From assembly GCA_001557035.1 (NCBI GenBank), contig LSKJ01000341.1, forward strand, positions 1 to 11,421: 11,421 nt of DNA, read 5' to 3'. Positions 2 to 11,421 of the stretch are shown one piece after another. Position 1 is the stretch's first letter. Each line of letters starts with the position of its first letter. The notes beneath the pieces are model-generated. The model searched no databases. It was not told the origin of the DNA and was given only the letters and a program-made list of their open reading frames with translations. Made by a program: the position numbers and the translations under genes. This stretch comes from Rhodospirillaceae bacterium CCH5-H10. GTDB lineage: Bacteria; Pseudomonadota; Alphaproteobacteria; Reyranellales; Reyranellaceae.

Positions 2-3000
2 GCGCAGCTTGACGGTATCGCCGCCGGCATGCTGACCAGTTCGGACATCGTGACGATCGCAGATACGTCGGCGAAGATAAACGCACTGACAGACTCGGCC
101 ATTGCTGCACTCGCGGGCAAGGGTGTCGACAGGATTGATTCGACGGACGACGCGTTGTCGTTCACCGTGGCTAAGTATCTCGCGCTGGGCAGTGTCGCTT
201 TGACCGCGGCCGACACGATCACGTTGGCCGATACCGGCGCCAACCTCGGCACCCTCTCGGGCGCGCAGCTCGCGGCGCTGGCGGCAAAAGGCGTCGACAG
301 GATCGACGCGACGAACAATGTGTTGTCGCTGACGGTCGCGAAGCTGCAGGCGCTGGGGACGGTCGAATTGACCGATACCGACGTGGTGACGCTTGCTGAC
401 ACCGGGGCGGCGCTGGAGGCGATGTCGGTCGGTGAACTGTCGGCTCTGGCAGCCAAGGGGGTCGACAGAATCGATTCACTCACCAATGCGCTCACCTTGA
501 ACGTGGCGAAACTGCAGGCGCTGGGCACCGTGCTGCTGACGGCGGCCGATACCGTGACGCTGGCGGACACGGGGGCGAACCTCGGAACGCTGACGGCGTC
601 CGAGATTGCAGACCTTGCGGCCAGGCTGATCGACAGGGTCGACGCCACGGACAACGTGCTGACGCTCACGCTCGCCAAGTTTCAGGCGCTGGGAACCGTC
701 GCGCTGACTGCGGCGGACGTGGTCACGCTGGTCGATACCAGCGCCGTCCTGAATGCGCTCACGCCGGCCCAGATCGCGGCGCTGGCGGGGAAGGGTGTCG
801 ACCTGATCAACGCCATAGACGACGTGCTGACCCTCTCGGTGGCGCAGTACCGCGCGCTGGGCACGGTCGCGTTGACCCAGGCCGACTTCGTGACCTTGGC
901 CGACACGTCGGCAAATATCGCATCTTTGACGCCGGCCGAGAACGCTGCGCTTGCGTCTAAAGGCATCGACGAGGTCCAGAGCACGGGCGGAACGACCGTC
1001 GAGACGGCGCTGGCGAGCTACACGCTGGCCGCCGGTATCGATAACCTGACGTTCGTGGGAGACGGACCCTTCGCGGGTACCGGCAACGCCATTGCCAACA
1101 CGATTACCGGCGGCGCCTCGGGCGACACGCTGAGCGGCCTCGGCGGGAACGACACGCTGCTCGGACTCGACGGCGATGATCTGCTGATCGGCGGCTTGGG
1201 GGCCGACGTGCTGAATGGCGGCGCTGGTGGAGACTACGCCTCCTATCGCAACGCGACCGCCGGCCTCACCGTGTCGCTCGCCGACCCGTCCGCCAACACG
1301 GGCGAGGCCATTGGCGATAGCTTCATCAGCATCGAGCGTATCGAAGGGTCGGCGTTCAACGATACGCTGATCGGCGACGCCGCCGACAACACCCTGCGGG
1401 GCGGGCTCGGGGCGGATGTGCTCAATGGTGGCGCAGGCCGGGATACGGTATCGTACTTCACTGCAACCGCGGGCCTCACCGTTTCGCTGACTACACCCGG
1501 CAGCAATAGCGGCGAGGCGTCTGGCGATACCTTTGTTTCGATCGAGAATATCTCCGGCTCCGCCTTCGACGACAACCTGACCGGCGACGCCGGCGACAAC
1601 ACCTTTTTTGGCAATGGCGGTGCCGACAAGATGGACGGTGGCGCAGGCTTCGACTACGCGTCCTACCGCAATGCCACTGCCGCCGTGACGGCGTATCTCG
1701 GCGACACCGTCCACAATACCGGCGAGGCGGAAGGCGACAGCTACATTTCCATCGAGGGGCTTTCGGGCTCCAACTTCGACGATACCCTCGTCGGCGACGC
1801 GTCGAACAACTGGCTCGAGGGCGGTCTGGGCTTCGACATCCTCAACGGCGGTGCCGGTGTCGACTACGCCGCGTATTTCAACGCAACCAGCGGCGTGAGG
1901 GCATCCCTGCTTGATCCCTGGAACAACACCGGCGAGGCCGTCGACGCCTACACCTCGATCGAAGGCCTCGGTGGGTCCAGGTTCGACGACATCCTCATCG
2001 GCGATGGGCTCGACAACTATCTCCGGGGCGGCCTCGGAGCCGACTACATGGACGCCGGCAACGGCTTCGACTTCGCGGAATACTACAACGCCGCTACGGG
2101 CGTGACAGCGTCGCTGGCAAATTCTTCGGTCAACACCGGCGAGGCGGCGGGCGATACCTATGTCAGCATCGAAGGCCTGTCCGGTTCGTTGTTCAACGAT
2201 ATTCTGATCGGCAACAGCGGTGACAACTGGCTGATCGGCCTGGCAGGTGCCGACTATCTGGACGGCGGTCTCGGAAACAACGACTTCGCCGCCTACAGCA
2301 ACGCGACGGCCGCCGTGCAGGCGTCCCTTGCCAATCCGGGCACCAATACCGGCGATGCGGCTGGCGACACCTATGTGTCGATCGAATCCCTCAGCGGGAC
2401 CAGCTTCAATGACATCCTGATCGGCGACAGCGGCAATAACACACTCCGCGGCCGTCTGGGGGCGGACCAGTTGAACGGCGGCGACGGGTTCGATGTTGCT
2501 GAATACCTCAACTCCACGATCGGCCTCACGGTGACGCTGGACATCACGCTGTCGATTTCCAACACCGGCGAAGCGGCGGGAGACACCTTCATCTCGATCG
2601 AGGGTCTTTCAGGTTCGAACTTCAGCGACACCCTGGTCGGCGATTCCGGCATCAACACATTGTTTGGACGCAGTGGCGGCGACATTCTCTTCGGCGGTGC
2701 CGGCAACGACACCTTCTACGGCAACAGCGCCACTGCCGGCTTCGATGGCTCGGTTGATCGCGTGGACTACAGTCGCGTGACGGGCCTGTCGCAGGGCATC
2801 TCGGTCAACTGGCTCGCGGGCAGTGTGGTTGGCCAGGCGGGCATCATCGACACCGACTCGATGTTCCAGATCGAGGCCGTGTTCGGAACCGCCTTCGTCG
2901 ATACGTTCGATGCGACCGGCTTTACTAACCTGTCGGCCCGTGCCGGCGACTTCGGCGGCTTTCAGTTCATCCAGGGCGGTGGCGGAAACGACATCGTCAT

Positions 3001-5392
3001 CGGCAACAACAATACCGAGGTATTCTACGGCGATGCCACCAGCGGGGTGACCGTAAACCTCAGCATTACCGGCGGCGTCCATGGCGGCACGGTGACGGGC
3101 GGCGGCGTCGGCACCGACCAGGTCACGAACGTGAACAGGTTCGTCGGCTCGAACTTCAACGACACGTTCTTCGGTACGAACAACGTCGAGATCTTCGACG
3201 GCTACAATGGTGGCGACGACGTCTATCACGGCGGCGGCGGCCTCGACATCGTCGAGTTCGACGGCGGAGGCCGGGACGCCATCGACGTCAACATGGCCGC
3301 CGGCACCATCACCGGCCGCGCGCCGGGGTCCAACATCGGCAACGATACGCTGGATTCCATCGAGCGCATCCGCGGCTCGGAGTTCGCGGACCGCTACGAC
3401 GCCACCGGCTTCTCGAACCTCAGCACGAATGCCGGCTCCTCCGGCAATTTCAACCGGTTCGAAGGCCAGGGCGGCGCGGACGAGGTGATCGGCAACGGCA
3501 ACACCTACCTCGACTATTTCAACACAAGCGCCGCCATCACCGTGACGACGACCGGGCAGGGCATCGGTACGGCGACGGCCACCTACGGCAGCAACACCGC
3601 GACCGACACGTTCAGCGGTGTCGCCGCCGTCAACGGCGGCAACTCCAACGATACCTTCAATGGCGGCAGCGGCGCCGACCTGTTCTTCGGAGGAGGCGGC
3701 AACGACTTCATGAACGGCGGCGCCGGCGACGACACGCTGGAAGGCGGGGCGGGGGCCGACTCGCTGAATGGCGGCACGGGCTTCGACTACGCGCAGTACC
3801 GCAACGCGGGGGCGGCGGTGAGCCTCATCCTTGCCAGCGGCGGCTTTGCGGGCGACGCGCTTGGCGATCACTTCAACAGCATCGAAGGCGCGATCGGTAC
3901 GAACTTCAACGACACCCTGACAGGCAGCAACGTTGGCAACATCCTGGTCGGCGGCCTGGGGGCAGACACCCTGAACGGCGGCGCGGGCGACCACATGTCG
4001 TTCGACGATACCGACTACGCGTCGTACTTCACGTCCTCGGCCGGCGTGACGGTATCGATCGCCAATCCTGGCGCGAACACGGGGGAGGCGTTCGGCGACA
4101 CCTTCGCCAACATCAACGGTTTGATCGGGTCCAACTTCAATGATGTGCTGACCGGGTCCGATGTCTTCAATGATGTCTTCATCGGCGGGTTTGGCAACGA
4201 CACGCTGAACGGTATGGCCGGTACCGATCTTGCTCGCTACGACTCCGCGGTCTTCGGCATCAGCGTCACGATGGGCTCGGGTATTGTGAATGGCGGCGCC
4301 GGGCAGGATACGCTCCTGTCGATAGAAGGCATCTGGGGGTCCAACTTCGCCGACACCTACGATGCCTCGGCGTACACGGCCGGCACGCCGGGCGCGCCGT
4401 TCGACGACTTCAACTTCTTCGAGGGATTCGGCGGCACCGACACGATAGTCGGGTCGCCGACGGCTACCCCGGGCGGCATCCTCACCACGAGCATCCACTA
4501 TACGCAGGCCACCGCCGGCATCTGGGTAACCATGACCGGCGCGGCGGCAGGCAACGTGTCGGCGACCTACGGGGCCGATACCTCGGTCGACACTTTCACG
4601 AACGTGAACAGTATCGTTGGCTCGAACTTCAATGACACATTCAACGGAACCAGCGGTGCGCAATCATTCGACGGCGGAGGTGGCGGCGACGTCCTGCAGG
4701 GAGGGGCAGACAACGACTTGCTTTCCGGCGGGGACGGCAGCGATCAACTGATCGGCGGTACGGGAGATGATTTCCTCGTGGGCGGCGCCGGTGCCGATGT
4801 GTTGGATGGCGGCGATGGTATCGACATGGTTTCCTACTACGAGTATTCCCTGGGCGGAGGCGGCGTAATCGGCCTCACCGCATCGCTCGAGAATTCTTCG
4901 ATCAACACCGGCAGTGCCGCCGGCGACACTTACGTCTCGATCGAGAATCTCGCGGGAACCTTCGGGAACGACACGTTGGTGGGCAACAGCGGTAACAACA
5001 TCATCGACGGCGTCTTTGGCGCCGACTTCTTCAACGGTCGAGGCGGCCTGGATACGCTCAGGGGCCTGGGCGGCGGCGACACGTATGTCTTCGATTCGGC
5101 GATCGGCGCCGGCAACGTCGCCACGATTGACGGCTACGTGCATGGACAGGATCACTTCAACCTGGACAATGCCATCTTTACGCAACTCGGGCCCGAGGGT
5201 GGGCTCGACGCATTTACCTTCGTGAACGGTACCGCGGCTCTCGATTCGAACGATCGCATCATCTTCGACAGCACCACGGGCAACGTCATGTTCGATGCCG
5301 ACGGCTCGGGCGCAGGGGCTGCGGTGGTATTCGCGACGATGCAGAACCTGCAAGGCGGGCCGTTGAACCATACTGACTTCCTGATCGTCTGA
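2..5392 (+). CDS. Giant RTX calcium-binding repeat protein, type I secreted (5' partial)
   Basis: This is the 3' part of a gene for a large extracellular or surface protein. The frame is open from base 2, and the codons before the first ATG (base 29) read AQLDGIAAG, which matches the end of a repeat unit (AKLQALGTV). The ATG at 29 is therefore internal and the real start lies upstream. Numbered from that ATG (1787 residues): residues 1-280 are five tandem 56-residue repeats with a degenerate sixth. Glycine/aspartate nonapeptides (GGNDTLLG, DGDDLLIGG) begin near 372. Seven ~70-residue modules occupy 391-882. Divergent modules with YDATGF-like motifs and further RTX clusters (about 1211-1251 and 1549-1596) follow. 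The tail from about 1670 has DRIIFDSTTG, FDADGSGAG and a terminal DFLIV, typical of type I secretion C-termini. No cysteine was seen. In this family Ca2+ binding folds the repeats after export. The specific role (adhesion, matrix or enzyme scaffold) is unknown, and no ABC exporter gene is in view. Confidence 0.93.
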   Translation, partial: AQLDGIAAGMLTSSDIVTIADTSAKINALTDSAIAALAGKGVDRIDSTDDALSFTVAKYLALGSVALTAADTITLADTGANLGTLSGAQLAALAAKGVDRIDATNNVLSLTVAKLQALGTVELTDTDVVTLADTGAALEAMSVGELSALAAKGVDRIDSLTNALTLNVAKLQALGTVLLTAADTVTLADTGANLGTLTASEIADLAARLIDRVDATDNVLTLTLAKFQALGTVALTAADVVTLVDTSAVLNALTPAQIAALAGKGVDLINAIDDVLTLSVAQYRALGTVALTQADFVTLADTSANIASLTPAENAALASKGIDEVQSTGGTTVETALASYTLAAGIDNLTFVGDGPFAGTGNAIANTITGGASGDTLSGLGGNDTLLGLDGDDLLIGGLGADVLNGGAGGDYASYRNATAGLTVSLADPSANTGEAIGDSFISIERIEGSAFNDTLIGDAADNTLRGGLGADVLNGGAGRDTVSYFTATAGLTVSLTTPGSNSGEASGDTFVSIENISGSAFDDNLTGDAGDNTFFGNGGADKMDGGAGFDYASYRNATAAVTAYLGDTVHNTGEAEGDSYISIEGLSGSNFDDTLVGDASNNWLEGGLGFDILNGGAGVDYAAYFNATSGVRASLLDPWNNTGEAVDAYTSIEGLGGSRFDDILIGDGLDNYLRGGLGADYMDAGNGFDFAEYYNAATGVTASLANSSVNTGEAAGDTYVSIEGLSGSLFNDILIGNSGDNWLIGLAGADYLDGGLGNNDFAAYSNATAAVQASLANPGTNTGDAAGDTYVSIESLSGTSFNDILIGDSGNNTLRGRLGADQLNGGDGFDVAEYLNSTIGLTVTLDITLSISNTGEAAGDTFISIEGLSGSNFSDTLVGDSGINTLFGRSGGDILFGGAGNDTFYGNSATAGFDGSVDRVDYSRVTGLSQGISVNWLAGSVVGQAGIIDTDSMFQIEAVFGTAFVDTFDATGFTNLSARAGDFGGFQFIQGGGGNDIVIGNNNTEVFYGDATSGVTVNLSITGGVHGGTVTGGGVGTDQVTNVNRFVGSNFNDTFFGTNNVEIFDGYNGGDDVYHGGGGLDIVEFDGGGRDAIDVNMAAGTITGRAPGSNIGNDTLDSIERIRGSEFADRYDATGFSNLSTNAGSSGNFNRFEGQGGADEVIGNGNTYLDYFNTSAAITVTTTGQGIGTATATYGSNTATDTFSGVAAVNGGNSNDTFNGGSGADLFFGGGGNDFMNGGAGDDTLEGGAGADSLNGGTGFDYAQYRNAGAAVSLILASGGFAGDALGDHFNSIEGAIGTNFNDTLTGSNVGNILVGGLGADTLNGGAGDHMSFDDTDYASYFTSSAGVTVSIANPGANTGEAFGDTFANINGLIGSNFNDVLTGSDVFNDVFIGGFGNDTLNGMAGTDLARYDSAVFGISVTMGSGIVNGGAGQDTLLSIEGIWGSNFADTYDASAYTAGTPGAPFDDFNFFEGFGGTDTIVGSPTATPGGILTTSIHYTQATAGIWVTMTGAAAGNVSATYGADTSVDTFTNVNSIVGSNFNDTFNGTSGAQSFDGGGGGDVLQGGADNDLLSGGDGSDQLIGGTGDDFLVGGAGADVLDGGDGIDMVSYYEYSLGGGGVIGLTASLENSSINTGSAAGDTYVSIENLAGTFGNDTLVGNSGNNIIDGVFGADFFNGRGGLDTLRGLGGGDTYVFDSAIGAGNVATIDGYVHGQDHFNLDNAIFTQLGPEGGLDAFTFVNGTAALDSNDRIIFDSTTGNVMFDADGSGAGAAVVFATMQNLQGGPLNHTDFLIV
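29..868 (+). repeat. Five tandem 168-bp repeats (56-residue units)
   Basis: Units run 29-196, 197-364, 365-532, 533-700 and 701-868, each exactly 56 codons. A degenerate sixth starts at 869, and a further unit ends just before base 29. The protein consensus is roughly xLTxADxVTLADT, then GAxLxxL, a LAAKGVDRID stretch and VAKxQALGTV. The units differ from the RTX nonapeptides downstream. The pattern of alternating hydrophobic positions suggests a stacked solenoid, but I cannot assign a named domain. The array continues off the left edge, so the copy number is unknown. Confidence 0.92.
1199..2674 (+). repeat. Seven tandem ~210-bp RTX modules (~70-residue units)
   Basis: Residues 391-882 of the RTX protein divide into seven units of 70, 70, 70, 69, 70, 71 and 72 residues. 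Each starts with GADxLNGGAG and continues with DYASYxNAT, a hydrophobic strand, NTGEAxGDxxxSIEGLSGS and FNDTLIGD. Each unit thus pairs a calcium-binding glycine turn with a beta-rich insert. The near-constant length and differing sequence point to old tandem duplication followed by divergence, with single-residue indels in the last four units. Weaker relatives of the module recur further downstream, for example near 3760-3970 and 4770-5000. Confidence 0.9.
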
Positions 5393-5448: not shown

Positions 5449-5871
5449 ATGCCGTTCGCGCAAAGCAGGGCCTGGCGCACCGTAGCGGGCTTTGTCGTCG
5501 CGCCGATGATGCCGGCGCTGATCCTCGCCGCCGTGGTGCTCGCCGCCGGCGGCGATTCGCAGACGCTGGGGTATGCGGCCTTCGCCAGCTACGTCTCATA
5601 CCCTTTCGCGCTGCTGGTCGGCCTTCCGTCGTTCCTGGTCATGCGCCGCAAGCGCTGGGACGGCTGGCGTGCCTATGCGGTAGCGAGCCTCGTCCTCGGA
5701 CTCGTCTTCCTGGCAGTGTTTGCTGCTCTGGTGGGCGTGGACGGCGAAAAGGCCAACTCCGCCTGGCTGGCCCTGCTGGCCAATCTCGCTTTCCTTCTTC
5801 CGTTCGTGCTGGCCTGTGCGCTGGTATCGTCGATGGTCTTCTGGCTGGTGGTCCGGCCGGACCTTCGCTGA
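5449..5871 (+). CDS. Small four-helix membrane protein, function unknown
   Basis: The product has 140 residues and is highly hydrophobic. Four transmembrane segments are visible at about residues 11-34, 40-65, 75-97 and 104-135. The loops between helices 2 and 3 (RRKRWDGWR) are strongly basic and probably cytoplasmic by the positive-inside rule, which puts both termini on the cytoplasmic side. No catalytic motif or known transporter signature was recognised. The start is chosen for its ideal AGGAGG. It follows the RTX gene by 56 bases on the same strand, so readthrough transcription is possible, but nothing links it functionally to RTX export. A 14-base palindrome (GGTCCGGCCGGACC, 5850-5863) lies over the last codons and may contribute to a 3' hairpin. 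Confidence 0.75.
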   Translation: MPFAQSRAWRTVAGFVVAPMMPALILAAVVLAAGGDSQTLGYAAFASYVSYPFALLVGLPSFLVMRRKRWDGWRAYAVASLVLGLVFLAVFAALVGVDGEKANSAWLALLANLAFLLPFVLACALVSSMVFWLVVRPDLR

Positions 5872-5978: not shown

Positions 5979-6533
5979 ATGGCGCGGGTCAGCGAGATCG
6001 AGGAAGACGGTGGCGATCCCATCCTGAAGGCCGCCTTCGACAAGCAGCGCGAGATGTTGGGCGGCCTGCTCAATCCGACCAAGGTGATGGCGCACTGCCC
6101 GCCGATCCTGCGCGCCGCCGGCATGCTGGGCCAGTCGATCGAGCAGTCGGGACTTCTCCCCAAGGGGCTGCCTGCGCTGCTCTATGTGCGCGTCGCGACG
6201 ATCAACGGCTGTCCGTTTTGAATTGATATCAACTCCAGCCGTGTGCTGGAGACGACGGAAGGCGGGATGGAGAAGCTGGCGGACGTCACGACGTGGCGCG
6301 ACAGCACGCTCTTCAGCGAGGCCGAGCGGCTGGCGCTCGAATATGCCGAGCGTATCACCTACACCGACCGCAAGGTCGACGACGCGCTCGTCGACCAGCT
6401 CAAGCGGCACTACACCGAGGCCCAGATCGTCGAGCTGACGGCGGCCATCGCGATGGAAAACTTCCGTTCCAAGTTCAATCCCGCGCTCGGGATCGAGGCG
6501 CAGGGCTTCTGCATGGTGCCGAAACGGGATTAG
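5979..6533 (+). CDS. AhpD-like (CMD family) selenoprotein with CxxU active site; in-frame TGA at 6219
   Basis: Read through the TGA at 6219-6221, this is one 184-residue protein of the carboxymuconolactone decarboxylase/AhpD-like type. Residues 1-80 and 82-184 are in the same frame and together span the family: the N-terminal NPTKVMAHCPPILRAAG region, the LPALLYVRVATINGCPF core, then IDINSS, SEAERLALEYAERIT and the closing helices. The TGA is residue 81 in C78-P79-F80-U81, the place of the second Cys of the CxxC redox pair. AhpD relatives use this pair as a thiol/disulfide centre that reduces peroxides or partner proteins. The usual His four residues after that Cys is Asn85 here. A SECIS-like hairpin lies at 6233-6251. 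The start has GAGG six bases upstream, and the stop is TAG. The alternative is a nonsense mutation of TGC/TGT, which is less likely given the intact downstream frame and the identical situation in the next gene. The cellular substrate is unknown. Confidence 0.86.
6233..6251 (+). promoter_or_regulatory. Putative bacterial SECIS element of the AhpD-like gene
   Basis: CTCCAGC (6233-6239) pairs without mismatch with GCTGGAG (6245-6251) around loop CGTGT (6240-6244). The stem begins 11 nt after the TGA, and the loop begins 19 nt after it. Bacterial SECIS elements lie inside the coding region just downstream of UGA, with an apical loop roughly 16-37 nt away and a G at one of the first two loop positions. 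All these conditions are met. SelB would bind this loop to deliver Sec-tRNA. The bulged U known in the E. coli fdhF element is not present. Confidence 0.8.
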
Positions 6534-6564
6534 ACTGCCGACAACAATGAAGCTGGTGGAAACG

Positions 6565-7422
6565 ATGACCGAGACCGTCCGCTACATCGACCGCACGAGG
6601 GCCTATTACCGGGCCCTCGGTTATCCGTCGGACTATGTCTGGGCGCGCTTCGACGAAGTACCGTTCGCGCCGCTCTCCAGGCCGCTGTCGCAGGCCAGGA
6701 TCGGGCTCGTGACCACGGCGAGCCCGCCGGACCTCGGCAATCGCGATTCAGCCGGCAAGCGGCAGGTTTGGTCGGGCCCGGTCTCGCCGGCCCCGGCGAC
6801 GCTGTTCACCGCCAACGTCGCCTGGGACAAGGAATCGACGCACACCGACGACCGGGCCAGTTTCCTGCCGATCGAGGCCATGCAGGAGCGGGTGGCGGAG
6901 GGTACGGTGGGCGATCTGGCCACTCGCTTCCATGGCGTGCCGACCGAATACAGCCAGCGCAAGACGATGGAGATCGACGCGCCGCAGGTGCTCGAGCGGC
7001 TGCGTGCCGACGGCGCCGATGTGGCGCTGCTCAGTCCGCTTTGACCCGTCTGCCACCAAACCGTGAGTTTGGTCGCCCGTCATCTCGAAGCCAACGGCAT
7101 GCCGACCGTGATCGTTGGCTCCGCTCTCGACATCGTGGAATATTGCGGCGTGCCGCGCTTCCTGTTCACGGATTTCCCGCTGGGCAACCCCTGCGGCCCG
7201 CCGTGGCGGCGGGACCTGCAGCGCGTGATTGCGGGGCAGGCACTCGATCTTCTCGGGAGTGCCGAAGCGCCGCGCACGACACGGCGCTCCGATATCGCCT
7301 GGCCGTCCGATGACGACTGGCGGCCGCGTTACGGGAGCGTGAAGCCGGAAGAGATCGAGCGCCTCAGGAAGCTGGGCGAGGAGAGGCGCGAGCGACAGGC
7401 CGAGTCGAAGAAGCCCGGATAG
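6565..7422 (+). CDS. GrdB/PrdB-like reductase selenoprotein with UxxC motif; in-frame TGA at 7042
   Basis: Read through the TGA at 7042-7044, this gives a 285-residue protein resembling the glycine/sarcosine/betaine/D-proline reductase selenoprotein B family found as single-gene relatives in proteobacteria. Visible segments are VRYIDRTRAYYRALGY at the start, ARIGLVTTAS, FHGVPTEYSQRKTMEID, then ADVALLSPL-U-PVCHQTVSLVARHL, and EYCGVPRFLFTDFPLGNPCG. The TGA is residue 160 in U160-P-V-C163; cysteine homologues, as I remember them, have CPVCHQ here. Clostridial GrdB and PrdB use this Sec in reductive cleavage of amine substrates, but the role of stand-alone proteobacterial relatives is unsettled. 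A SECIS-like hairpin follows at 7055-7073. I favour ATG 6565, with GGTGGA upstream; ATG 6547 (six residues longer) is possible. It begins 31 bases (13 for the alternative) after the AhpD-like stop, so the two are probably one operon. Confidence 0.86.
7055..7073 (+). promoter_or_regulatory. Putative bacterial SECIS element of the GrdB-like gene
   Basis: ACCAAAC (7055-7061) pairs perfectly with GTTTGGT (7067-7073) around loop CGTGA (7062-7066). The stem begins 10 nt after the TGA and the loop 18 nt after it. Two more G-C pairs (7052-7053 with 7075-7076) extend the helix below a C-C mismatch. The closing pair and the first four loop bases (C then CGTG) are identical to those of the hairpin in the preceding gene although the stems are unrelated, as expected if one SelB protein recognises both. 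Confidence 0.82.
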
Positions 7423-7443: not shown

Positions 7444-8421
7444 CTACTCCATCTGGATGTTGAGCTCGCGCAGCTTCTTGGCCCAGAAGGCATGTTCTTC
7501 GCCGACGAACTTGGCGAACTGGGCGCGGGTCCGATTCGGTGGCATTTCCAGTCCGTCGCGGGCAAGCGCCTCCTCGTACTTCGGGTTCTTCATGCCTTCC
7601 TTGGTCGCCTTCTCGATCTTGTCGAGGATGTCGGGCGGGGTCTTGGCCGGAGCGAACAGGCCCTGCCAGCTGGTGACGACGACGTCGATCCCCTGTTCCT
7701 TCAGGGTCGGCACGTCCGGCATCGAGCTCACCCGCTTGTCGCCGGTCACCGCCAGCGCCTTGAGGTTGCCGCCCTTCACCTGGGAAACTGCCGGCGGCAG
7801 GGACGAGAAGTTCATGGTGATCTGGCCACTGATCACGTCGGCAACCGCCGGGCCGGTGCCCTTGTACGGGACGTGGGTGAGCTTGACCCCGGCGGCTTCC
7901 GCGAACAGCGCGCCGGCCAGGTGGTTGTTGCCGCCCACGCCCGACGACGAGTAGGTGAGCTTCTCGGGATCCTTCTTGGCCAGCGCCACCAGTTCGGCCG
8001 CGTTCTTGACCGGAACCTTGTTACCGACCACCAGCACGTACTGGTAGTCCGTGATCTGGCAGATCGGCGCCAGGGCGGCGAGCGTGTCGATCATGCCCTT
8101 CTGGACATGCGGGTTGATGATCACGTTCGTGCCGACGGCGACGAACAGGGTCTGGCCGTCGGGCTTGGCGTTGGCGACGGTGCGCAGGCCGATCGAGCCG
8201 GCCGCACCGCCCTTGTTCTCGATGATGATCTGCTGCCCGATGACCGGCGTCATGACGTGCGCCAGCTCGCGGGCGTTGATGTCCGTGCTGCCGCCCGCGG
8301 CATAGCCCACGACGAAGGTGACCGGACCGGCCGGCCAGTTGGCCTGGGCGCGCACGGCCGATGGCAGCAACAGGGACGAGCCGCCAACGGCGAGGGCATG
8401 ACGTCGGGTGATTGGGAACAT
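7444..8421 (-). CDS. Bug/TctC-family periplasmic solute-binding protein
   Basis: The 325-residue product fits the tripartite tricarboxylate transporter (TTT) substrate-binding family, which captures carboxylates in the periplasm. An N-terminal signal peptide with a twin-arginine-like TRRHALAVGG core ends near residues 25-27 (VRAQA). Family features follow: WPAGPVTFVVGYAAGGSTDI, VIIENKGGAAGSIG, the HVPYKGTGPAVADVISGQI region and a final FAKFVGEEHAFW helix. The start at 8421 is chosen because AGGAGG lies six bases upstream and because the signal peptide begins there; an in-frame upstream start would bury it behind 29 charged residues. It lies 93 bases downstream of tcuA on the same strand, so co-transcription is likely. 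No TctA or TctB membrane partners are in view. Such orphan Bug proteins are common in bacteria with expanded families, and some act as sensors. The ligand cannot be read from sequence. Confidence 0.92.
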   Translation of the reverse strand: MFPITRRHALAVGGSSLLLPSAVRAQANWPAGPVTFVVGYAAGGSTDINARELAHVMTPVIGQQIIIENKGGAAGSIGLRTVANAKPDGQTLFVAVGTNVIINPHVQKGMIDTLAALAPICQITDYQYVLVVGNKVPVKNAAELVALAKKDPEKLTYSSSGVGGNNHLAGALFAEAAGVKLTHVPYKGTGPAVADVISGQITMNFSSLPPAVSQVKGGNLKALAVTGDKRVSSMPDVPTLKEQGIDVVVTSWQGLFAPAKTPPDILDKIEKATKEGMKNPKYEEALARDGLEMPPNRTRAQFAKFVGEEHAFWAKKLRELNIQME

Positions 8422-8427
8422 GTTCTT

Positions 8428-8433
8428 CCTCCT
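8428..8433 (-). promoter_or_regulatory. Shine-Dalgarno AGGAGG for the TctC-like gene
   Basis: On the minus strand AGGAGG lies six bases before ATG 8421. It decides the start in favour of the signal-peptide form. Confidence 0.8.
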
Positions 8434-8514
8434 CTGCCGCGCGCGGTTATCCGCGTCGCGCAACCTCAGTTTGCCAAAGACCTTGAAGCCAATCCCGCCC
8501 GGCAGCAAGCGGGG

Positions 8515-10005
8515 CTAGTTCTTTCCCGCGACGTACTTGCCCGCGCCATCGCCCGCGAGCTTGCCCAGCACCGCGCCGGAGACGAGGCCCGTGCCGCCCG
8601 GATAGTTGTGATAGAAAAGCCCGCCCACCAGTTCGCCCGCGGCGAACAGGCCGGGGATCGCCTGGCCGTCGGTGTTCTCGACCTCGCCCTCGTTGCTGAT
8701 CTTCAGGCCGCCGAAGGTGAAGGTGAGGCCGCAGGTCACGGCATAGGCCTCGAACGGACCCTGGTCGATCGTGTTGGCCCAGTTGCTCTTCGGCACGGCG
8801 AGGCCGCGCGTGCCGCGGCCGTCCTTGATCGCCGGGTTGAACGTCACGTCGGTCATGACGGCGGCGTTCCATTCCTTGATCGTCTTGAGGAACTGCTCCC
8901 GGTTCACGCCCTCGAGCTTGGTCGCCAGCTCCTCGATCGTGTCGGCGCGGACCTTGGTCATGCGCTTGATGCGATACTCGTCGCGCAGCTTGTCGAGCAC
9001 CTTCGAATCGAAGATCTGCCAGGCAAATTGCTGCGGCTGCGCCAGGATCACCGCGCCGTACTTGGCATAGGTGTAGTTGCGGAAGTCCGCGCCCTCGTCG
9101 ACGAAGCGCACGCCATTGGCGTTCACCATGATGCCGAGCGGGTAGGAGTGCTTCTGGAAGTTGTCGCCGACATCGAGATCGCCGAACTCCGGCGCGTTCA
9201 TGTCCCAGCCGACCGCGTGGCCGCCCGACCAGTTGCCGTGCGGCTTGGCGCCGATCGCCAGCGCCATGTTGATGCCGGCGCCGGTGTTGAAGCGGGTGCC
9301 GCGCACCTTGGCGAGATCCCAGGTCGGGCCGAGGTATCGCGTGCGCATCTCGGCGTTGCTCTCGAAGCCGCCGCAGGCCAGCACGACGGCCTTGGCGCCG
9401 ATCCGCACCTTGCGGCCCTTGTGGCGGGCGATGACGCCGCGAACGACGCCGTCTTCCTCGATCAGCGACACCGCCGCCGTCTCGTAGTGGATCGGGATGC
9501 CAGCCTTCACCGCGGCCTTGTGCTCCAGGTCGACGAGACCCGGACCGCCGCCCCAGGCCTCGACCGCGAGGCCGCCCCAGAACTTGTACTTGCCGTTCAC
9601 CTTGAAGGCCTGGCGGCCGTAGGAGGGCTGGAAGCGCACGCCCTTGGAGCGCATCCACTTCATCGTCTCGAAGCTGCGGCCGATCAGGATGTCGGTCAGC
9701 TCGGGGTCGCAGCGGTAGTTGGTGACCCGGCCCATGTCGTCGAGATATTCGTCGGCCGAGTAGCTGCCGAAATCGACGTCGCGCTTCTCGTCCTCGGTCA
9801 GGTCGTAGAGCTGGACCAGGTCGTCGACGCCGTGGAACACCACGCGCATGGCGCCGGCCGTGTAGGTGCTGTTGCCGCCGCGTTCGGCCTCCGGAGCCGC
9901 CTCCAGCATGGCAACCGAGGCGCCCGTCTCGCGTGCCGCGAGAGCCGCACAGGCCGCCGCATTGCCTGCACCCACAACCAGTACATCGACCTGAAAATCG
10001 TCCAC
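8515..10005 (-). CDS. tcuA: FAD-dependent tricarballylate dehydrogenase-like flavoprotein
   Basis: The 496-residue product belongs to the fumarate reductase/succinate dehydrogenase flavoprotein superfamily and best matches TcuA, which in Salmonella oxidises tricarballylate to cis-aconitate. The FAD-binding beta-alpha-beta fold is at residues 7-35 (VDVLVVGAGNAAACAALAA). GGNSTYTAGAMR follows at 43-54, then AVVLACGGFESNAEM, RFVDEGADF, and a C-terminal FAD segment with GLFAAGE (452-458) and HNYPGGTGLVSGAVLG (466-481). Length is normal for the family. Translation starts at a GTG with GAGGAG six bases upstream. It is the first gene of a probable two-gene operon with the TctC-like protein. No TcuB electron-transfer partner or TcuC transporter is in view, so the physiological acid may differ. 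Other members of the flavoprotein family, such as 3-ketosteroid dehydrogenases, are less likely. Confidence 0.85.
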   Translation of the reverse strand: MDDFQVDVLVVGAGNAAACAALAARETGASVAMLEAAPEAERGGNSTYTAGAMRVVFHGVDDLVQLYDLTEDEKRDVDFGSYSADEYLDDMGRVTNYRCDPELTDILIGRSFETMKWMRSKGVRFQPSYGRQAFKVNGKYKFWGGLAVEAWGGGPGLVDLEHKAAVKAGIPIHYETAAVSLIEEDGVVRGVIARHKGRKVRIGAKAVVLACGGFESNAEMRTRYLGPTWDLAKVRGTRFNTGAGINMALAIGAKPHGNWSGGHAVGWDMNAPEFGDLDVGDNFQKHSYPLGIMVNANGVRFVDEGADFRNYTYAKYGAVILAQPQQFAWQIFDSKVLDKLRDEYRIKRMTKVRADTIEELATKLEGVNREQFLKTIKEWNAAVMTDVTFNPAIKDGRGTRGLAVPKSNWANTIDQGPFEAYAVTCGLTFTFGGLKISNEGEVENTDGQAIPGLFAAGELVGGLFYHNYPGGTGLVSGAVLGKLAGDGAGKYVAGKN

Positions 10006-10715: not shown

Positions 10716-11421
10716 ATGACCTCATCGTTTGAACCGCCTCTCAAGGGCGTCCGCGTCGTCGAACTCACCCACACCATCCTCGGCCCGTCCTGCGGCATGA
10801 TCCTGGCCGACCTCGGCGCCGAGGTGATCAAGGTCGAGCCGGTCGACGGCGACCGCACGCGCAAGCTGCGCGGCTTCGGCGCCGGCTTCTTCGGCTACTT
10901 CAACCGCAACAAGAAGAGCCTGGCGCTCGATGCCGATTCGCCCGAGGGCCGCAAGGTACTGGTGAAGCTGCTGGAGAAGGCCGACGTGCTGATCGAGAAC
11001 TTCGCGCCGGGTTCGATGGCCAAGCGAAAGTTAGGTCCGGCAGACCTCGAGAAGATCAACCCGCGCCTCGTCTACTGCGCGCTGAAGGGCTTCCTGCCCG
11101 GGCCCTACGAGAAGCGGCCGGCGCTCGACGAGGTCGTGCAGATGATGGGCGGGCTGGCCTACATGACCGGCCCCAGCGGGCGGCCATTGCGCGCCGGCAC
11201 CTCGGTGATCGACATCGTGGGCGGCATGTTCGGCGCCTTCGGGACGGTGCTGGCGCTGAAGCAGCGCGACCGGACGGGAAAGGGCGGACTGGTCGAGAGC
11301 GCACTGTTCGAATCGGTCGTCTTCCTGATGGGCCAGCATCTCGCGATCACCGCGATCAACGGCGCGCCGCCGCCGCCGATGCCGGAGCGCGTGAGTTCAT
11401 GGGCGATCTACGAGATCTTCA
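10716..11421 (+). CDS. CaiB/BaiF family (class III) CoA-transferase, 3' partial
   Basis: The first 235 residues are present and the gene runs off the right edge; complete members have about 380-410 residues. Class III CoA-transferases move CoA between carboxylic acids in the cytoplasm. Diagnostic segments are LKGVRVVELTHTILGPSCGMILADLGAEVIKVE at the N-terminus, GYFNRNKKSLALD, DVLIENFAPGSMAKRKLG, and LDEVVQMMGGLAYMTG. In the last, Asp138 sits where the family's catalytic aspartate forms the acyl-anhydride intermediate. GTSVIDIVGGMFGAFGTVLAL and GGLVESALFESVVFLM follow. The ATG at 10716 is followed directly by the conserved N-terminus; GAGG is only one base away, and GTGAGG further off is the more plausible ribosome site. 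Substrate specificity cannot be inferred. Context with a tricarballylate-type dehydrogenase suggests organic-acid catabolism. Confidence 0.93.
   Translation, partial: MTSSFEPPLKGVRVVELTHTILGPSCGMILADLGAEVIKVEPVDGDRTRKLRGFGAGFFGYFNRNKKSLALDADSPEGRKVLVKLLEKADVLIENFAPGSMAKRKLGPADLEKINPRLVYCALKGFLPGPYEKRPALDEVVQMMGGLAYMTGPSGRPLRAGTSVIDIVGGMFGAFGTVLALKQRDRTGKGGLVESALFESVVFLMGQHLAITAINGAPPPPMPERVSSWAIYEIF

Follow-up and report, generated by a model that had tools for sequence, protein, structure and literature searches.

A PrdB-like selenoprotein encoded beside an AhpD-like selenoprotein gene in a Reyranella clade

Marine metagenomes have yielded PrdB-type selenoproteins with a UxxC motif since 2005, and the accessible text of the reports places them among the more abundant selenoproteins of ocean water (PMC1088965, PMC2398784). 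The Sargasso Sea data contained 42 such sequences (PMC1088965), and the GOS samples yielded 235 forms with selenocysteine (Sec) versus 110 with cysteine (PMC2398784). AhpD-like CxxU proteins were counted in the same collections (27 in the Sargasso Sea, PMC1088965; 299 in the larger of two GOS families, PMC2398784), and two reviews list both families (PMC9312934, PMC13188914). Adjoining selenoprotein pairs are mentioned in the GOS paper, and a PrdB/AhpD pair was not seen in its accessible text (PMC2398784). Likewise, the literature search, as far as the retrieved text extends, returned no publication describing selenoproteins paired as PrdB/AhpD or PrdB/CoA-transferase, and no reaction was found assigned there to stand-alone PrdB-type selenoproteins.

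Its relatives include the D-proline and glycine reductases, in which, according to the available text of PMC10298544, the selenolate helps to break a carbon bond and a selenenyl-sulfide arises on the way; the substrate is thought to be bound via the pyruvoyl group of another subunit in D-proline reductase, and possibly in glycine reductase (PMC10298544). FarB of Cloacibacillus is a GrdB-like protein proposed to reduce monofluoroacetate (PMC10838667, available text), and it resembles the protein described here as a Sec protein of the GrdB family with a proposed non-amino-acid substrate. However, FarB has FarE, a GrdE-like partner, encoded alongside it (PMC10838667), whereas no such partner was found for the present protein.

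In the current study, we analysed a window of 11,421 nucleotides, positions 1–11,421 of contig LSKJ01000341.1 from Rhodospirillaceae bacterium CCH5-H10, for a PrdB-like selenoprotein gene that occupies positions 6565–7422 of the forward strand and encodes 285 residues when one TGA is read through, as delimited by open reading frames, profile matches and the start seen in same-clade records. The TGA at 7042–7044 is the sole stop in this frame between 6547 and the TAG at 7420–7422, and the codons TGA CCC GTC TGC (7042–7053, forward strand) give the motif U-P-V-C in the translation and the alignment, which agrees with the UxxC motif of the original prediction. Two in-frame ATG codons were considered as the start, at 6547 and 6565. 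Position 6565 is the better start: every one of the 19 same-clade records, among which one genome is in part repeated, has ATG 6565, whereas ATG 6547 is not kept, and ATG 6565 is preceded by the Shine-Dalgarno-like GGTGGA (6555–6560, forward strand; identical or nearer to consensus in the same-clade records). Numbering from ATG 6565 makes the Sec residue 160, in agreement with the original prediction; the structural model and the profile comparisons are numbered from ATG 6547, which makes it residue 166.

The read-through protein matches the PrdB profile TIGR04483 over residues 40–236 (E 5e-20, 71.9 bits), below the family cut-off of 300 bits. The predicted GrdB/PrdB kinship is borne out. Each half also matches TIGR04483 separately, and the offset at the junction is equal (residue 162 corresponds to position 144 and residue 168 to position 150, counted from ATG 6547); therefore, the TGA lies in an ungapped column of the profile, and the two halves belong to one protein, as the original prediction held. 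The GRDB profile PF07355, whose search had been proposed as a check, was matched below its gathering score of 22 bits, with 15.6 bits for the read-through protein and 18.2 bits for the first half alone. As judged from dN/dS values of about 0.1–0.2 on both sides of the TGA against the 19 same-clade records, some of which repeat one genome, purifying selection acts both before and after it. A genetic code with TGA as a sense codon was rejected because other open frames of the window terminate at TGA, for example at 5390–5392 and 5869–5871.

Set against the known systems, the protein shares with D-proline reductase PrdB (TIGR04483) the Sec at the homologous column and the sequence U-x-x-C-H, but it is 22–26% identical to it in the alignment, scores below the family cut-off, is about 45–50 residues longer and is encoded without PrdA or PrdC. 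The C-terminal part of GrdB, GrdF and GrdH (PF07355, TIGR01918) aligns with it, although about 175 N-terminal positions of the GrdB models are missing and the match is below every cut-off. With the marine PrdB-type proteins it has in common PrdB kinship by name and Sec in UxxC. The accessible text on those proteins gives no gene context, whereas the present gene could be assigned to a Reyranella-like locus, next to the gene of another selenoprotein, with no PrdA-type partner found. As PrdB-type UxxC selenoproteins have been reported since 2005, the protein belongs to an already known kind; source databases name its relatives proline or glycine reductase.

Alignment of 82 related loci, a set that includes a few repeat records of one genome (L001 and L008, for example), showed that the position of the TGA is a Cys/Sec column throughout, with TGA in 47 loci and a Cys codon (TGC or TGT) in 35. 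The alignment around residue 160 asked for earlier thus supports the prediction, including its expectation of relatives with Cys. The same column holds the TGA at residue 151 in the annotated PrdB of Terrisporobacter glycolicus and Enterococcus raffinosus, and so Sec is documented by annotation at this column in clostridial and enterococcal PrdB, in line with the claimed equivalence to the active-site Sec of the reductase B subunits.

Downstream of the TGA, a SECIS hairpin was identified at 7055–7073 of the forward strand by folding, pairing across the family and covariation, consisting of a 7-bp stem (7055–7061 with 7067–7073) and the loop CGUGA (7062–7066), with a spacer of 10 nt between the UGA and the stem. 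From 157 sites, 82 distinct Sec segments and 48 distinct Cys segments were obtained, and pairing was counted at the fixed register. The Sec segments formed 6.74 of 7 pairs on average, 63 of them perfectly, compared with an average of 4.40 and no perfect stem in the Cys segments. Synonymous recoding lowered the Sec mean to 4.69 (maximum 5.01 in 1000 runs) and made no real difference to the Cys segments (4.40 observed, 4.30 recoded). The loop was CGTGA, CGTGG or CGTGT in 78 of 82 Sec segments and in 1 of 48 Cys segments, the latter being a Cys locus (L154) that still has CGTGA.

Among 36 Sec sequences picked for their spread, four of the seven pairs changed on both sides, and 500 shuffles never equalled this count or its covariation score. 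As kinship plays no part in the shuffling, the result is not to be read as a probability. Registers slid from the true one paired in at most 32.5% of cells, versus 95.6% at the true register. For the window sequence alone, 7 of 7 pairs were reached in 3.6% of recodings, and free folding gave z values of -0.83 for the 54 bases from the TGA and -2.11 for the 41 bases after it. On these figures, the window by itself gives a suggestive signal, and it is the family that decides. An Rfam scan of the window gave no match.

The Sec machinery was observed in relatives of the window genome. The nearest genome examined, judged to be Reyranella aquatilis KCTC 52223, contains SelA, SelB, SelD and tRNA-Sec. 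SelB exceeded its cut-off in 36 of 37 genomes of the same genus and in 38 of the 61 genomes overall, and tRNA-Sec was found at 71–76 bits in 35 of the 37; the exception for both is G019 (89% complete), joined for tRNA-Sec by G008 (73% complete). In five genomes tried, SelD was found in all and SelA in three (G001, the R. aquatilis genome, G009 and G016, not G019 or G049).

A PrdB-like match (E 1e-20 or better) was present in 30 of 385 alphaproteobacterial genomes, 21 with a TGA copy and 9 without. The first search found SelB in 18 of the 21 TGA genomes versus 0 of the 9 others (Fisher p 1.5e-5). A fuller look at the three SelB-less TGA genomes and at two of the nine others (G371, G397) added G160, giving 19 of 21 versus 0 of 9, where absence in the other seven non-TGA genomes was scored on at most three candidates per genome. 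The two TGA-bearing genomes in which SelB was not detected are G350, which does have tRNA-Sec (locus L162), and G049 (77% complete; locus L151), in which tRNA-Sec was not detected either. Among the nine genomes without a TGA copy, G108 has a TAG elsewhere in the match and TGC at the Sec column. In G128, a Cys copy coexists with a TGA copy that is more distant and has its TGA in U-P-V-C. In G160, the Sec copy (L155:1990) has an unusual SECIS loop, GGTCA, and the SelB of this genome scores 299 bits versus about 450–470 for full Reyranella matches; it is possible that SelB and the loop changed together. The PrdB-like selenoprotein of the window is not an isolated case: between one and five PrdB-like matches, some fragments included, were found in all 37 genomes searched within the genus.

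Since the column, the SECIS element, its covariation, the selection on both halves and the machinery agree, these five lines of evidence make it practically certain that UGA 7042–7044 is a selenocysteine codon recoded via the downstream SECIS.

The original prediction had left it open whether this lineage kept or regained Sec. A tree was made by a quick method from 133 rows, 96 of them Sec and 37 Cys, after removal of duplicates and of rows shorter than 190 residues; of the betaproteobacterial Cys rows, six were retained. The Cys rows fell into scattered groups nested among Sec rows, which takes 10 changes, and supported branches force a minimum of 6 of these; as the tree was quick and has some long branches, the number of changes is approximate. 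One nested group is a Bradyrhizobium-type Cys clade of 12 rows, 64–69% identical to the window protein. Within the genus, three Reyranella genomes (G014, G025 and G002; loci L122, L123 and L124) have Cys in their copy of a sister subfamily, type d, and the rest of the genus has TGA; these Cys copies retain a weakened SECIS stem of 4–5 of 7 pairs. The simplest reading, which the nesting favours, would be an ancestral Sec with repeated loss to Cys, so that, of the two options in the earlier alternative, keeping is favoured and regain is not.

Upstream of the PrdB-like gene, open reading frames and profile matches define an AhpD/CMD-like selenoprotein gene (5979–6533, forward strand) that is also read through a TGA (6219–6221) in the motif C-P-F-U, seen in the sequence and in relatives. 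Its SECIS (6233–6251, forward strand), recognised by folding and in relatives, has the sequence CTCCAGC-CGTGT-GCTGGAG, that is, a stem of 6233–6239 with 6245–6251 and the loop CGUGU at 6240–6244, and it shows a paired change in locus L136 (TTCCGTC with GACGGAA). The protein shares CxxU with the AhpD-like/YciW-related selenoprotein family NF053654, to which it scores 133.7 bits, not reaching the cut-off of 310. The gene ends 31 nt before ATG 6565 in the same direction, and the two genes are probably co-transcribed.

Neighbouring genes were compared by direct tblastn. The AhpD-like gene with its TGA is present in 34 of 37 Reyranella genomes, and its adjacency to the PrdB-like gene is confined, among the loci compared, to the one Reyranella clade of the window. 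In four of five other Reyranella genomes (L125, L126, L127, L136), the AhpD-like gene stands directly beside genes for a TctC-type tricarboxylate-binding receptor and a TcuA-like FAD-dependent dehydrogenase; the fifth, L128, is rearranged. The same two genes follow the PrdB-like gene in the window, both on the reverse strand: TctC at 7444–8508 (longest open reading frame; the older neighbour of the AhpD-like gene) and the TcuA-type gene at 8515–10005. This arrangement is most simply explained if an AhpD-TctC-TcuA locus came first and the PrdB-like gene was inserted into it later, in a single clade. The two genes are genuinely paired, but recently so, and because the near-universal AhpD-like gene adjoins a PrdB-like gene in one clade only, the functional link may be weak; any functional meaning is inferred. 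At the other end of the window, a large open frame (2–5392) contains many GGxGxD-like repeats, which to the eye look like the calcium-binding repeats of the RTX type.

The original prediction had also noted that the partner subunits of the clostridial complexes are absent. Two reference plasmids carry PrdA and PrdC genes beside prdB, whereas neither stands near the PrdB-like gene of the window; tblastn with PrdA and PrdC across loci L001–L165 and the window matched the two reference loci only. PF09338, the profile of the PrdA/GrdE-type pyruvoyl subunit, was found in none of 61 related genomes, an absence weakened by the fact that no control genome gave a match either, although the model detects the reference PrdA with 79.2 bits.

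An AlphaFold2 model, made with Cys in place of Sec, showed an alpha/beta protein (pLDDT 95.2, pTM 0.92) in which residue 166 lies between a strand (159–163) and a helix (167–182), counted from ATG 6547. Sequence searches of solved structures gave no match, and the fold search gave nothing clear, its LacI or periplasmic-binding-protein-like matches being too weak to name a fold. Among 38 sequences, U/C166 was invariant and C169 and H170 near-invariant. One distant paralogue has U-P-L-D without Cys169, so Cys169 is not required in every member of the family, and another paralogue is without the His. Pairs of differing TGA-bearing PrdB-like genes also occur in tandem (L120:5004-6660, L121:775-2406, L133:3959-5602, L033:250-2183); in L033, one gene has U-P-V-C and the other U-P-L-D without the second Cys. 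Such a pair would perhaps represent two subunits of one enzyme.

As no PrdA-like partner was found, we propose that the PrdB-like protein may act as a stand-alone selenolate reductase, a reading that we consider somewhat better than even. The Sec166 selenolate would attack an electrophilic substrate, and Cys169 would resolve the substrate adduct to a selenenyl-sulfide, which a dithiol protein would reduce again; in the clade of the window, the likeliest reductant would be the AhpD-like CxxU protein of the neighbouring gene. The selenenyl-sulfide cycle itself is given a similar, modestly favourable chance. Without a PrdA/GrdE-type subunit, the kind of substrate adduct that has been proposed in proline reductase would be impossible, and the substrate would have to bring its own good leaving group or activation, as an alpha-substituted carboxylate or a thioester would. 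That the substrate is an alpha-substituted carboxylate or CoA ester is a tentative suggestion.

A rival possibility, which we also regard as tentative, is the reductive cleavage of an alpha-substituted carboxylate or acyl-CoA at a C-halogen, C-N, C-S or C-O bond in the manner of FarB or GrdB and without the pyruvoyl subunit. It gains from the prediction, in the available text of PMC10838667, that a GrdB-type selenoprotein attacks the C-F bond of monofluoroacetate via Sec, and from the carboxylate-metabolism genes at the window locus. It gains further from type d, about 45–49% identical to the window protein within the genus. Outside the Polynucleobacter group, 21 of 35 type d loci, some of them in Rokuibacteriota, have a CoA-transferase III gene immediately after the PrdB-like gene, Sec or Cys alike (13 of 19 Sec loci and 8 of 16 Cys loci; examples are L131:4962-7158, L132:3731-5864, L053, L080 and L040-L044), but in the same direct tblastn comparison none of 29 Polynucleobacter-type loci had this neighbour, with a single short locus excluded. 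No adjacency rule was seen in the window's own subfamily: the CoA-transferase family III gene of the window (10716–11421, forward strand, cut by the window end) lies about 3.7 kb from the UGA and is part of the older AhpD-TctC-TcuA locus. A common partner was not found among relatives outside the window's clade either, since the most frequent family occurred in 5 of the 119 scanned neighbour ORFs; 127 ORFs had been listed, the scan covered 28 loci (one of the original 29 was dropped whole), and the ORFs were selected by length alone, so that some are not genes.

Slightly less probable, and in our estimate doubtful, is a general thiol/selenol redox protein that reduces peroxides, disulfides or selenenyl groups and helps the AhpD-like selenoprotein to defend the cell against oxidative stress. 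The UxxC motif and the co-directional CxxU neighbour are consistent with such a role, as is the weak match of the AhpD-like protein to the peroxidase-related TIGR01926 (33.5 bits; cut-off 81.8). Against this, the protein is a PrdB relative with no thioredoxin or peroxidase family among its listed matches, and the AhpD-like neighbourhood is limited to one clade.

It is very unlikely that the protein is a genuine PrdB subunit of D-proline reductase with its partner gene at some other place in the genome. The TIGR04483 match (E 5e-20) and the common Sec column speak for this; against it stand the score of 71.9 bits with a cut-off of 300, the lack of PF09338 matches in 61 related genomes (with no control genome matched), and the absence of PrdA and PrdC from the loci compared. 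Since no pyruvoyl subunit for the proline-reductase adduct was found, the protein is probably not a D-proline reductase. The least probable reading, that TGA 7042 is a true stop left by a recent nonsense mutation or sequencing error in a decaying gene, agrees with standard translation, which terminates there, but is ruled out for practical purposes by the conserved column (many assemblies contribute to the 47 loci with the same TGA, and the remaining 35 of the 82 loci have Cys), the covarying SECIS after the TGA, the purifying selection on both sides and the association of TGA copies with SelB across alphaproteobacteria.

Returning to the stand-alone selenolate reductase as the preferred reading, this case adds firm evidence for Sec, a partner that was looked for and not found, a count of paralogues and the clade-specific pair. 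The case also shows that standard gene calling cuts such selenoprotein genes into two pieces, as it does this one at TGA 7042. The function is directly testable, since the lineage includes a named strain, Reyranella aquatilis, the computational case for Sec is strong, no proline reductase partner is in sight, and natural Cys variants and a candidate redox partner are available. Speculatively, and at rather long odds, stand-alone PrdB-like proteins, present as several paralogous lines per genome, may form a two-selenoprotein reductase system with the CxxU AhpD-like protein, which would need no pyruvoyl cofactor to carry GrdB/PrdB-like selenolate chemistry to carboxylates or CoA esters and would operate beyond the anaerobic Stickland pathways.
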